Part shown: one piece after another, positions 27,124 through 64,000 of the stretch
How positions within the stretch are numbered: position 1 is the first letter of the stretch
Layout of the letters: every line of letters starts with the position of its first letter
Assembly: GCA_016223135.1 (NCBI GenBank)
Contig: JACRPQ010000017.1
Location: forward strand, 102,168-166,167
Reading direction: 5' to 3'
Source: Chloroflexota bacterium
Lineage (GTDB): Bacteria; Chloroflexota; Anaerolineae; Anaerolineales; Villigracilaceae
Length of the DNA stretch: 64,000 nucleotides
Made by a program: the position numbers and the translations under genes
The notes under the pieces: model-generated
Database searches by the model: none
Told to the model about the DNA's origin: nothing
What the model saw: only the letters and a program-made list of their open reading frames with translations

Positions 27124-27127
<4 letters not shown>
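25514..27127 (-). CDS. YtcJ-like metal-dependent amidohydrolase
   Basis: 'FIFPGLTDAHIHLQHYALSLQKVDCET', 'VHAIGDRANHEVLNAYEQL', 'LAFGSDAPVESPNPF'. Confidence 0.9.
26742..26787. repeat. Dispersed palindrome family B (CCTCTCCC...GGGAGAGG), in-frame inside amidohydrolase CDS
   Basis: CCCCCTCACCCGCAGCCCCTCTCCCGGCGGGAGAGGAG; arms 26766-26773/26777-26784; encodes SSPAGRGAAGEGV. Confidence 0.75.
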
Positions 27128-27972
<845 letters not shown>

Positions 27973-28104: not shown

Positions 28105-28200
28105 ATTAACTCACCTTACGCAATTTCTTCGTAGGGCGACTTTCATGTCGCCCGAAAACGCGAGATAAATCTCGCGCTACCGCGTAATATCAGTGATTAA
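28105..28200. repeat. Dispersed palindromic repeat family A, copy 4 (core 28159-28176)
   Basis: TTAACTCACCTTACGCAATTTCTTCGTAGGGCGACTTTCATGTCGCCCGAAAACGCGAGATAAATCTCGCGCTACCGCGTAATATCAGTGATTAA. Confidence 0.88.
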
Positions 28201-28976
28201 TTTATTTTTACTCCATCGCCTTTGAGCAGTTCCTTTGCCAGCGCTTCGTAGGCGGCGGCGCCCACAGAAGCCGGCGCGTAAGCAGAGATGGGCAGCCCGT
28301 AGGAGGGCGCTTCTGCCAGGCGGATGCTGCGCGGCACGACGCTTTTAAAGACCTGCCCCGGGAAGTGGTTGTTGACTTCCTTCACCACATCGTGGGCGAG
28401 GGTGGTGCGGGCGTCGTACATGGTCAGGATGACGCCGCGCACTTTCAGGTCCGGGAAGAGAAGCGATTGGACGCGCCCGATGGTTTGGGTAAGTTGACCA
28501 AGTCCTTCGAGGGCGAGGTATTCGCACTGCACGGGGACGAGCACGCCGTCTTTGGCGGCAACCAGCCCGTTGACGGTCAGGAGACCGAGGGAGGGCGGGC
28601 AGTCAATGAGGATGTAGTCGTATTTATGGTCGAGCGATTCGAGGGCGGTTTTGAGGCGGAATTCACGCCCGGGTTCGTCCACCAGTTCCACTTCGGCGCC
28701 TGCCAGCGCAGGGGAGGAGGGCAGGAGCGAGAGCCGCAGGCGTTCGTTGAAGAGGATGGAAGAGGACAACGCTTCGCCGTTGATGAGCGCCTCGTAGGTG
28801 CCTGCCTGCACGGTGTGTTTGTCCACGCCGAGGCTGGAGGTGGCGTTGGCTTGCGGGTCGAGGTCCACCACAAGGACGCGCTGTCCCAGTTGGGCGAGGT
28901 AGGCGGCGAGGTTGATGGCGGTGGTGGTTTTTCCCACTCCGCCTTTTTGGTTGACGAGGGTGTAGGTGCGAGTCAT
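28197..28976 (-). CDS. parA: ParA/Soj chromosome partitioning ATPase
   Basis: 'MTRTYTLVNQKGGVGKTTTAINLAAYLAQLGQRVLVVDLDPQANATSSLGV'. Confidence 0.97.
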   Translation of the reverse strand: MTRTYTLVNQKGGVGKTTTAINLAAYLAQLGQRVLVVDLDPQANATSSLGVDKHTVQAGTYEALINGEALSSSILFNERLRLSLLPSSPALAGAEVELVDEPGREFRLKTALESLDHKYDYILIDCPPSLGLLTVNGLVAAKDGVLVPVQCEYLALEGLGQLTQTIGRVQSLLFPDLKVRGVILTMYDARTTLAHDVVKEVNNHFPGQVFKSVVPRSIRLAEAPSYGLPISAYAPASVGAAAYEALAKELLKGDGVKIN

Positions 28977-28978
28977 TG

Positions 28979-29034
28979 GATTTGCGATTTACGATTTACG
29001 ATTGGCGATTTGCGATTGGCGATTTACGATTGGC
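28979..29034. repeat. GATT(T/G)(A/G)C heptad array, 8 units, immediately upstream of the parA start
   Basis: gatttgc gatttac gatttac gattggc gatttgc gattggc gatttac gattggc. Confidence 0.92.
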
Positions 29035-29142
29035 GTAAGAAAACGCCCGGTACGCTCTAATTACTTTTGAGAATCTATCACAAGCGCGAAGCTTCTGCAG
29101 CGCGACATTTATGCCGCCTTTGGTTGCGACTCGAAGGTCGCG

Positions 29143-29994
29143 TTACGGGATGACCACCATCATGCTTTGTTCGATTTCCTGCGGGGTGGGGATGCTGTTC
29201 AAGCCTTCGCGTTCGACGGAGTGGGAGGCGAGCAAGGTGGCAAAGCGGGCGGCTTCCCATGGGTCGCGGGTGGTCAGGTAGCGGAAGAAGAAGGCGGCGG
29301 CGAAGATGTCGCCTGCGCCGGTGGCATCCACCTCGCGGACGGACGGCGCGCGGAAGCGGCGGCGGTCGCCGTGCCAGTGAAGGACTGCGCCGGCTGCGCC
29401 TTCGGTCACGACGAGGATTTTGGTTTGTTCTGCCATGTGTTCGATGAGCAGGTCGTCGCCGTTCACGTCTTCGCGGCTGATGACCACCGCGTCTGCCCGC
29501 GCCAGGGCGGGCTCTGCATCTGTCCATGCGCAGGGGGAGACGCGTCCGCTTGAATCCCATTGGCGCATCCAGCCTTGCGGGGTGAGTCCAAACAGGGATG
29601 GGGAAAACCCTTCTGGCAGGATGGCGTCCACCTCATTGGCGATGGGGGCGAGGTGAAGGATGGGAGCGGAGCGCCAGGCAGCAGGCACGAGGTCCAGGGG
29701 GATGCGGTCGGCGCGGGCGCGCAGGTATTGGACGCGTCCGTCTGCGGTGTAGAGGTTTTCGTAAGTGGTGCTGGTCTGCGATGGAAGAGTGAGGATGGAA
29801 ATGCCGTTCAGCGGTTCGAGGGAAAGGTCTGCGCCTGCGGCGGTGACGATGCCCACACGCAAGCCGAGGGCGCGGGCGGTCAATGCGGCGTAGGCAACCG
29901 TTCCGCCCAGGCGTGCGCCGTGAGGGGTCAGGTCGCGCGCGGCGTGACCGATGACGAGGTAATCCACCGTTTCGCGCGGAACGAGGCTGTGCAT
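29143..29994 (-). CDS. PfkB-family sugar kinase
   Basis: 'ARLGGTVAYAALTARALGLRVGIVTAAG', 'EVDATGAGDIFAAAFFFRYL'. Confidence 0.9.
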   Translation of the reverse strand: MHSLVPRETVDYLVIGHAARDLTPHGARLGGTVAYAALTARALGLRVGIVTAAGADLSLEPLNGISILTLPSQTSTTYENLYTADGRVQYLRARADRIPLDLVPAAWRSAPILHLAPIANEVDAILPEGFSPSLFGLTPQGWMRQWDSSGRVSPCAWTDAEPALARADAVVISREDVNGDDLLIEHMAEQTKILVVTEGAAGAVLHWHGDRRRFRAPSVREVDATGAGDIFAAAFFFRYLTTRDPWEAARFATLLASHSVEREGLNSIPTPQEIEQSMMVVIP

Positions 29995-47297: not shown

Positions 47298-49745
47298 TTA
47301 CGGAACTTCATAAATCGTAACGCTTCCCTGTTGGAAGACAGGCTGGAGGAAGTTATTGAATTTCGCCTCGTTGACGCGGTAGGCACTGCGTTCCAGCGTG
47401 CCGACAAAGACGTAACGGACGTTGTATTGCTGGAGGAGAGTTTGGGTGGTCTGCCAGTCGGGGGTGGTGTAGAGGGTTTCGATGTCACTTGTGCGCTGGG
47501 CAAGGATGCCTTGAAAATCGATTCCACGCCATTGACCTTCGTGGTTGCCCCAGCCGAGGATGGTCGGTAAACCGCTGTAGATGGAGATGCGCCCATAACT
47601 GGAGTAGGGGTTGCCGGTCGCTTCAAGGATAATTCCATCGGGGGCAGATTTCAGCCAGAGGATGGCGGCGGCTTCGTCGAGGTTTTCGCGCTGCAGGCGG
47701 TCGAAGTCGTCGAGGGTGAAGCCGAAGGGCGGCTGAAAGTTGTTTGCTTTGTTCGGAAATCCCAGCACGGGATAGGTCAGCCCGGCGAGCAGGACGAGGA
47801 GGAAGACGACACTGAAAACGGCATTCGCCGCGCCGCGTAAATTCTTCAGCAAAACAGCCGCTCCATAAGCAGCGGCGAGGCTGAGCAAAATCCATGCTTG
47901 GTAATAAAACTTGAAGACGGTGTTGATGCGGTAGCCGAAATTGTCCTGAAGGTAGAGGAAATCGGGACCGAGGATGAGGAGGCTGCCGAGGGCAATCAAT
48001 AAAAGGACGAAGGTTGAAGGATAAAGGATGAATGCCTGTTCATCCGTCGAATGGTCCCGCTTTGAGAACAAAAATGCCAGGGTGGGAATCAAAAGCCCAA
48101 GCAGGGTGAGCAGGCTTCCGATGTGGCGGAGGCGGCGCGTGAAACTGTCGGCGAGGAAGGTGGCGGCGTCGCGTCCCTGTCCCTGCAGGATGGGCAGGAC
48201 GAGTTCCGGGCGCAGGCGGTAGGCGAGAAGTCCCATCGCCAGCATGGTGAGGAGCAGCAGGAGGACGATGCCCAACGATGCGAAGATTCCACTACCCCAG
48301 TCGGCGGGTGTGTTAGTGCGCCAAAGATAAATGAGCCATGCCAAGAGCGGCACGAAGAGCGTCCCCCACATCACCCACAGATGCGCACCGCGCGTGACGT
48401 ACATGAAGTTCGGCACGATGCCGCCCGCCTGTGAATCGAAACCGATGAAGAACGGCAGATAGAGGACATAGGCGGCGACGAGAAGCGGGACGCCGAACAG
48501 CAGGATGTCCTCGATTCTTTCCCAGCCCCAGCCTGCTTCCCGCACCCGAGCCAGCGCATAACTGAAAACAATCGCCGCCGCGACGGGCAGAATGTCCCAC
48601 GTGTTGAGGAACGCCATGCCGCCGAGCAGAAACGCCGCCATGAGGAAGCCGCTCTTGCTGAGGTGCAATTCGCCAAAGTACACATTGAGCCGCCCGCGAA
48701 AGCCGCCGAGGAACAGGTTCAAGGCAAAGGCAATTGCCAGCAGGAAGAAGGGGATGGACAGCACATGCGGATGCAGATCGCCGAGCAGGAAGGAAAAGGC
48801 AGGGAATTCGTCAATGGCTTCGCGGAAGCCGCCGTTGAGGTCGTAGTCTTGCACCACGCGGGAGGCGCGCCACCACCACCAGAAGCGGTCGGGAATCCAC
48901 TGCGGGATTGGCGGCGGGGGATTGCGTAGTTCAGGGATGTCGAGCCAGGTCCAGAAGTTGGAGCCGTCGCGCCAGAAGAGTCCGCGCGCGTGGATGACTT
49001 CGAGGAAGCCTTCGAGATTGGAGACGAGCAGGAGGAAGAGAGGGGCGAGGAAAGAATTTGCGATTGCAGATTTACGATTTTCGATTTCGGATTGGTGATT
49101 GGTAATTGGTGATTGGTAATCCTTGAGAAGGTTATACAAAATTCCATACGCGCCGAGGGCAGCCAGACCGAAGATCAGCGCCAGCATGAGGTTGAACGCC
49201 GCCGTCGCCGGGACGCCGGTGAATTTTGCCAGCATGGCAGTCATCACGTAGCCGAAGTAGTAATAGGAGATGGAGTATCCCGAAAGCCACAGGTCGCGCG
49301 GAGGAAACGTCGGCGAGTTCATGATGCCGCTGATGAACATCAACTCCATCGGTTTTTCGGTGCCGAGGATTTCAGGGTTTGCCGAACGGAAGAACGCCAG
49401 GAAGCCGAAGGCAAGGAGGAAGAGAAGCTCGGAGGCAAGGATGAGTTTGGCGTTGTCTTTGAGCCAGGCGGTGAATGTGGTAATTGGAAATTGGTAATTG
49501 GTGAGGAATGCCCAAGTGCTCAAGGCGATGAGGACCGCCAACGCAAGCAGCAGTCCGCCCAGGTCGTTTTGGGAGATGCTCAGGTTGGCAAACAGCCAGA
49601 AGATGTAACCCCACAACATCAGCCCGAGGGCGCGGGAGAGGGTGTAGCCGCGGTCTGCCAGCGCGGGGAAGAGACGGTACGCCAGCGGGAAGGCGATCCA
49701 GCCAAGCAGGGTGATGAGGAGGTACCAGGAGAGGAAGGAGGGCAT
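47298..49745 (-). CDS. DUF2298 (Chlor_Arch_YYY-type) large membrane protein
   Basis: 'TEKPMELMFISGIMNSPTFPPRDLWLSGYSISYYYFGYVMTAML', 'GDLHPHVLSIPFFLLAIAFALNLFLGG'. Confidence 0.88.
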   Translation of the reverse strand: MPSFLSWYLLITLLGWIAFPLAYRLFPALADRGYTLSRALGLMLWGYIFWLFANLSISQNDLGGLLLALAVLIALSTWAFLTNYQFPITTFTAWLKDNAKLILASELLFLLAFGFLAFFRSANPEILGTEKPMELMFISGIMNSPTFPPRDLWLSGYSISYYYFGYVMTAMLAKFTGVPATAAFNLMLALIFGLAALGAYGILYNLLKDYQSPITNHQSEIENRKSAIANSFLAPLFLLLVSNLEGFLEVIHARGLFWRDGSNFWTWLDIPELRNPPPPIPQWIPDRFWWWWRASRVVQDYDLNGGFREAIDEFPAFSFLLGDLHPHVLSIPFFLLAIAFALNLFLGGFRGRLNVYFGELHLSKSGFLMAAFLLGGMAFLNTWDILPVAAAIVFSYALARVREAGWGWERIEDILLFGVPLLVAAYVLYLPFFIGFDSQAGGIVPNFMYVTRGAHLWVMWGTLFVPLLAWLIYLWRTNTPADWGSGIFASLGIVLLLLLTMLAMGLLAYRLRPELVLPILQGQGRDAATFLADSFTRRLRHIGSLLTLLGLLIPTLAFLFSKRDHSTDEQAFILYPSTFVLLLIALGSLLILGPDFLYLQDNFGYRINTVFKFYYQAWILLSLAAAYGAAVLLKNLRGAANAVFSVVFLLVLLAGLTYPVLGFPNKANNFQPPFGFTLDDFDRLQRENLDEAAAILWLKSAPDGIILEATGNPYSSYGRISIYSGLPTILGWGNHEGQWRGIDFQGILAQRTSDIETLYTTPDWQTTQTLLQQYNVRYVFVGTLERSAYRVNEAKFNNFLQPVFQQGSVTIYEVP
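49055..49117. repeat. Heptad array inside DUF2298 CDS (9 units, two sub-families)
   Basis: aatttgc gattgca gatttac gattttc gatttcg gattggt gattggt aattggt gattggt; encodes YQSPITNHQSEIENRKSAIAN. Confidence 0.88.
49482..49502. repeat. AATTGG(A/T) heptads inside DUF2298 CDS (encodes TNYQFPITT)
   Basis: aattgga aattggt aattggt. Confidence 0.8.
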
Positions 49746-49747
49746 TC

Positions 49748-49796
49748 GATTTACGATTTACGATTTGCGATTTGCGATTTTGGATTTGCGATTGAC
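49748..49796. repeat. GATTTAC heptad array, 7 units, directly upstream of the DUF2298 start
   Basis: gatttac gatttac gatttgc gatttgc gattttg gatttgc gattgac. Confidence 0.92.
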
Positions 49797-58192: not shown

Positions 58193-58278
58193 GGACAGGT
58201 ACACAAGTAGACAGGTAGACAGGTAGACAAGTCGGTACGTGTTTACGTGTGTACCTGTGTACGTGTGTACGTGTTTAC
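58193..58278. repeat. 8-bp tandem repeat array (AGACAGGT / GTACGTGT), two oppositely oriented halves
   Basis: ggacaggt acacaagt agacaggt agacaggt agacaagt ... gtacgtgt ttacgtgt gtacctgt gtacgtgt gtacgtgt ttac. Confidence 0.88.
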
Positions 58279-63799: not shown

Positions 63800-63863
63800 G
63801 TGCACAAGTGGGCAGGCAGATACGTACACAGGTAGACAGGTAGACACGTAAACAGGTAGACAG
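63800..63863. repeat. 8-bp tandem repeat array GTAGACAG, 8 units, upstream of the flippase-like gene
   Basis: gtgcacaa gtgggcag gcagatac gtacacag gtagacag gtagacac gtaaacag gtagacag. Confidence 0.9.
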
Positions 63864-64000
63864 GTTGTAAGACCTGTTAAACTCGTACCCGTTCGAGAAT
63901 CTGGAAAAGTTGTAACAGGTTTGCACATTAACAATTTCATATCATAGATGCTGTCCCATAATCAGTGTGGGTCGTTTTCGCCACTGGAGCAGGAGGAGCG

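Follow-up and report, generated by a model that had tools for sequence, protein, structure and literature searches.

The eight heptads directly upstream of parA in the window, by which we mean the whole 64,000-nucleotide stretch of Chloroflexota DNA analysed here, probably form a translation leader that works independently of a Shine-Dalgarno (SD) sequence and is built of G-poor, unstructured repeat units. The array is not peculiar to parA; it is the local case of a genome-wide feature.

The array at the parA start

The array lies between a pfkB-family kinase gene and the chromosome segregation gene parA, all read on the minus strand:

29143 to 29994, minus strand: pfkB-family kinase gene, upstream of parA
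29035 to 29142, minus strand: remaining pfkB-parA intergenic DNA, subjected to a consensus scan for promoters
28979 to 29034, minus strand: eight-heptad array, (GYMAATC)8 on the mRNA strand, its final AATC at -6 relative to the parA ATG
28977 to 28978, minus strand: spacer of 2 nt between array and ATG, where AATC arrays usually have 2 or 3 nt
28197 to 28976, minus strand: parA (Pfam AAA_31), with its ATG at 28976, a start backed by orthologues
27124 to 27972, minus strand: parB (Pfam ParB_N, HTH_ParB, ParB_C), downstream of parA

Read on the plus strand, positions 28979 to 29034 consist without interruption of GATTTGC, GATTTAC, GATTTAC, GATTGGC, GATTTGC, GATTGGC, GATTTAC and GATTGGC, and TRF reports 8.1 copies of a 7-nt unit at 28979 to 29035. 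On the mRNA the leader therefore has the form (GYMAAUC)8-CA-AUG. An earlier, sequence-only reading of this DNA had described eight uninterrupted GATT(T/G)(A/G)C heptads beside the parA ATG, and the sequence agrees, with exactly 2 bases in between; both forms in its heading, GATTTAC and GATTGGC, are present, while the GATTTGC form, which makes up two of the eight heptads, had been left out of that heading.

The start codon of parA is correctly placed (MTRTYTLVNQKGGVGKTT). The N-terminus is the same in 15 ParA orthologues of the genus, M(T/S/P)R(T/I)YTLVNQKGGVGKTT, and where the sequence-only reading had allowed for a start elsewhere, the orthologues confirm the ATG at 28976. Bins of Chloroflexi, Thermoflexales and Anaerolineae are among the closest named matches to ParA, which points to class Anaerolineae of Chloroflexota as the probable source. 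None of AGGA, GGAG and GAGG occurs on the minus strand in the 60 nt before this ATG, which bears out the earlier statement that the array stretch holds no SD; parA does not fit canonical initiation, in which a purine-rich SD lies 5-10 nt ahead of the start codon. The consensus scan of 29035 to 29142 gave no sigma-70-like promoter, and Rfam gave no match within 28500-29500. The start region of parA (-40 to +35) has a predicted folding energy of -1.7 kcal/mol.

A genome-wide class of AATC heptad arrays

Is the array at parA an isolated case? We searched 1.26 Mb of the window's genome (G000), composed of contig C3 (1.06 Mb), the window and seven 20-kb stretches, for arrays of at least three AATC in 7-nt phase, and called genes with our own simple caller, whose hexamer model uses neither SD nor repeats (992 genes). 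There were 47 arrays, a total that is not that of a random sample because the seven 20-kb stretches were picked for holding arrays; the tests of orientation and gap are not directly affected by this choice. Contig C3 holds 34 arrays, whereas three first-order Markov sequences gave 0, 1 and 0. The three-unit pattern has 38 matches in the window's genome and matches in many relatives of the same family. The window itself contains a second array:

49748 to 49796, minus strand: seven AATC heptads in phase, separated by 2 nt from the ATG of the gene listed next
47298 to 49745, minus strand: the DUF2298 membrane protein gene behind this array

Twenty of the 47 arrays, all in mRNA sense, end no more than 20 nt before a called start; no antisense array does so. 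The modal gap to the start is 2-3 nt (2 nt in seven cases, 3 nt in four). Over the whole genome, sites where at least three heptads are followed by an ATG after 2-3 nt number 15 for the sense and 1 for the antisense orientation, and the sister genome G008 has 19 and 0. In more distant relatives belonging to other families, an ORF of 88 aa or more begins at the ATG behind sense AATC arrays in 16/21 sampled loci, whereas one begins behind antisense GATT arrays in 2/19 (Fisher p 3e-5). Taken together, the ORF and orientation counts show that the arrays are associated with genuine start codons and a single strand. The reversed arrays before an ATG in other families (GATTGGA units) were also considered as a mirror phenomenon, which we rejected since that ATG is seldom a real start.

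Strand bias alone is, however, no proof of a role in initiation. The AATC arrays inside genes are all in sense (13/13), and part of the bias is thus not specific to start codons. Within genes it presumably arises from the encoded peptides, polar linkers of the KSQIANR type in sense and hydrophobic DLRFAIY-like ones in antisense.

The genes behind arrays include parA, glyQS, murC, moeA, wecB, a sensor kinase, and ABC and MFS transporters, and they share no common theme. Many are common to G000 and G008, and the MoeA array is also found in another genus. Further arrays lie in other intergenic DNA and within genes as linkers.

Start type of the array genes

For the analysis of start type we used the 17 genes whose array lies at most 9 nt from the start codon, which is ATG in all 17. 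An SD precedes one of these 17 genes as against 443/969 other genes (p 8e-4), despite the normal anti-SD tail of the 16S rRNA gene in this genome (GGATCACCTCCTTTCT). The array sits at the position of the SD, and these counts speak for the SD-independent start that the sequence-only reading had offered as one option for parA. Across all 992 called genes about 45% have an SD.

The start regions of array genes are predicted to be weakly folded. Their mean folding energy between -40 and +35 is -4.7 kcal/mol, compared with -12.9 for non-SD genes (p 1e-7) and -12.7 for SD genes, and reverse-complementing the array leader takes the mean to -10.0 kcal/mol. Array genes thus display the weak folding expected where initiation proceeds without an SD through a local lack of structure, a mode with experimental support in E. 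coli (PMC3121790). Unfolded start regions with few SD-like letters upstream are known from Bacteroidetes and from other non-SD genes (PMC3121790; PMC5397173; PMC6847099); their leaders are not described as repetitive, unlike the leaders found here. Two Chloroflexi included in PMC5397173 gave no significant structure effect.

Could the array instead be promoter DNA of a leaderless gene, as the earlier note had also suggested, or could its copy number act as a contingency switch? We consider either very improbable. Leaderless-type genes do exist in this genome, with TANAAT at -14 to -12 and a TATAAT peak at -13/-12 from the start codon, and Chloroflexi have been reported to carry a few percent of leaderless genes (PMC3160421), with which array genes share the lack of an SD. 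Copy number also differs between species: at parA it ranges from about 2 to 9 among genus members (one genome per species; many of the genomes are fragmented drafts, and assembly may distort the number of repeat copies). Yet TANAAT at the leaderless position, present in 64/529 other non-SD genes, occurs in 0/17 array genes, which sets them apart from the leaderless class. The glyQS array is preceded by a conserved promoter, the consensus scan found none near parA, and in two relatives (G001 and G007) parA starts about 43 nt past the pfkB stop in an operon-like arrangement. The absent -10 signature, the promoter position at glyQS and the short distance to pfkB together make leaderless translation unlikely, and we rejected a leaderless promoter within the array. 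As for a switch, parA is an improbable gene to be turned on and off, and 7-nt copies placed before the ATG cannot shift the frame. The remaining option of the earlier note, that translation of parA depends on the repeat, is plausible, and copy number might conceivably tune expression, as that note also supposed.

Two further candidates were rejected. The 16S gene holds no 7-nt complement of the heptad variants tested, so that pairing of the unit with rRNA over that length is no alternative for these variants. The idea that arrays generally serve to provide stops in every frame fails because units such as GCAAATC and GCCAATC contain no stop codon and the parA units of G008 are almost all without TAA.

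Array and SD exclude one another at parA

Within the genus the position of the parA array is kept. The last AATC starts at -6/-7 in 12/15 members, and the copies upstream of it stay in 7-nt phase; the array is degenerate in G006 and G011 and absent from G009. This place is held while identity to the window's genome at 4-fold sites spans 0.81 down to 0.41, and the rest of the parA intergenic region is mostly alignable only in the nearest relatives.

Outside the genus, parA looks different. In 20/24 genomes from other genera of the family it has a GGAGG SD at SD distance within the last codons of pfkB and no array, and it starts on an ATG, GTG or TTG that overlaps or touches the pfkB end (loci L346-L370); the contrast between these genera and the array-bearing one agrees with an SD-independent start at parA of the window. 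In most other genera pfkB and parA are apparently a translationally coupled pair, which is uncoupled in the window's genus. The four remaining outside genomes lack an SD and all belong to one other genus; G019 and G380 have heptads, while G366 and G373 have neither heptads nor SD. Altogether, 14 parA genes have an array and no SD, none has both, 20 have an SD and no array, and 5 have neither. The exclusion gives a Fisher p of 8e-7 if genomes are taken as independent; the genomes are related and the value overstates the case, as do the other p values drawn from related genomes. Since the states cluster phylogenetically, they reflect few independent switches, in at least two lineages.

Different repeat families fill the leaders of glyQS and murC

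The glyQS array occupies the interval between a strongly conserved TATAAT and a conserved start codon, and its repeats differ between genomes; with the promoter on its upstream side, the array there is a transcribed leader. The interval is filled with AATC heptads in G000, G008, G005, G012 and G015, with ACTGATC-type heptads in G017, G014, G002 and G011, and with AATCTCC/CTCTACT-type heptads in G006, G007, G010, G013 and G016; the leader of G017 also contains TAACTGA. At murC, AATC heptads are present in G000 and G008 and AAACTAAC-like octads in G013, G012, G010 and G017, and about half of the set has no array. To judge from these sequences, place, G-poverty and a unit length of 7-8 nt persist at exchanged leaders, and the repeat sequence does not. 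Not every heptad family behaves like AATC, since the ACTG family shows no orientation bias at starts in the window's genome (5 vs 4); its variant ACTGATG itself contains ATG.

This exchange bears on a second explanation, in which the array is a sequence-specific element: a protein such as S1, a cold-shock protein or another RNA-binding regulator would bind the repeated AAUC(G) and control a regulon after transcription, as has been proposed for TAACTGA in Beggiatoaceae. The AAUC core and the 7-nt phase are indeed kept while flanking letters vary, and the positional parallel to TAACTGA is close (PMC4679880). But other repeat families, 8-nt ones included, occupy the same place in orthologues, and the array genes lack a common theme. 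As families swap at orthologous starts, an RNA-binding factor becomes less likely, and we regard this explanation as improbable.

The main rival to an SD-independent leader is that the arrays are tolerated filler. Slippage or local copying would expand heptads in the unconstrained leaders of genes whose start already lacks an SD, the array would add nothing, and the sense orientation would survive only because an array turned the other way would fold up or get in the way of the start. This fits the occurrence of arrays in other intergenic DNA and as linkers within genes, the freedom with which repeat families and copy numbers change at glyQS and murC, and two loci (C3 588217 and 565258) that show that an SD can sit between array and ATG. 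It fits less well with the orientation of 20 to 0. Conservation of the parA array at -6/-7 down to a 4-fold identity near saturation, where non-repeat intergenic DNA has mostly become unalignable, and, in at least two lineages, the change of parA from an SD to an array leader both argue against filler, which we therefore consider rather unlikely.

Other short tandem repeats

The genome carries further short repeats. Tandem 8-nt arrays of the ACACAGGT family occur in the window at 58194-58278 and 63813-63865 and on contig C3 of G000 at 390838-390929 (locus L127) and 625743-625950. Frequently their start lies 0-15 nt downstream of a stop codon, and frequently an octad array that is partly complementary to them comes next (the AAGTACAC family, as read from the opposite strand); such a pair could fold into a long intergenic hairpin with G-U pairs. 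Heptads of the ACTGATC family, which read GATCAGT on the mRNA, abut or span stop codons on C3, for example at 392838-392889, 734903-734946 and 920080-920127; GATCAGT includes a TGA and may itself provide the stop codon.

In conserved genes, tandem-repeat DNA encodes polar linkers, as at residues ~199-235 of the WecB-like L235 and ~298-333 of L198 (glyQS) (NSRESDSRESNSP...RLETIRLETIRPE; SDLRPSTSDLRPS). The WecB match breaks exactly at the linker in many genus members, which suggests from the sequence that the insert is absent there. In a survey of tandem repeats in G000, units of 7 nt (106 rows) and 8 nt (66) dominate over those of 6 nt (5) and 9 nt (9), and the process that makes the repeats seems to favour this unit length.

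Discussion

Dispersed heptads are familiar from cyanobacteria such as Nostoc and Anabaena, where short tandemly repeated repetitive (STRR) sequences are mostly intergenic and form several families per genome. The window's genome resembles them in pattern, with heptad arrays of more than one family scattered through its intergenic DNA. To our knowledge, no lock to start codons is known for STRR heptads. Our literature search found nothing on such heptad repeats in Chloroflexota.

The closest precedent is the TAACTGA repeat of Beggiatoaceae, with which the arrangement is common and the unit is not. These heptad direct repeats, also found in cyanobacteria and Bacteroidetes, are described as mostly intergenic, in mRNA sense and ending a few nt before starts, with SDs rare and some copies in ORFs; the genes are housekeeping ones without a clear functional theme, and a translational role has been proposed, as has, likewise only as a proposal, the binding of a regulator (MacGregor 2015, PMC4679880). 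The present arrays agree in being 7-nt direct repeats that end in mRNA sense just before the start, in the rarity of canonical SDs, in the missing functional theme and in their occasional location inside ORFs. They differ in phylum and in the unit, GYMAATC being degenerate and TAACTGA nearly exact. Beyond what we found in that study, our comparison of orthologues adds the conserved place, the exchange of repeat families and the exclusion of the SD at parA.

How might such a leader work? From the position, the missing SD and the predicted folding, we infer that the array promotes initiation, and a mode of 30S recruitment can be proposed. The G-poor heptads (consensus GYMAAUC), ending 2-3 nt from the AUG, would keep the start region unfolded, and the 30S subunit would load on this single-stranded tract and, needing no SD pairing, select the one AUG that is exposed. 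The source of the heptads would be families of short tandem repeats with rapid spread and turnover in the lineage, which would supply such leaders. Selection on the mRNA would then keep a G-poor array in mRNA sense at the start, leaving its sequence, copy number and repeat family free to change. At parA, the repeat leader would have replaced the SD-coupled start that most of the family retains. Orthologues without an array, namely parA of G009, G366 and G373 and about half of the murC set, weigh against this reading.

We further entertain, as a possibility and more tentatively, that the repeat is a replaceable ribosome-loading module. Genes losing their SD might be served by an invading tandem-repeat leader, families might replace one another at the same start, and their turnover might continually rebuild the SD-independent starts of core genes.

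How the ribosome finds the start in the large share of bacterial genes that lack an SD is an open question. In close relatives, parA shows both states, the overlapping SD-coupled start and the SD-less repeat leader, and thus offers a natural experiment on a repeat replacing an SD. Dispersed heptad repeats, usually seen as junk or as fingerprints, thereby gain a testable role.
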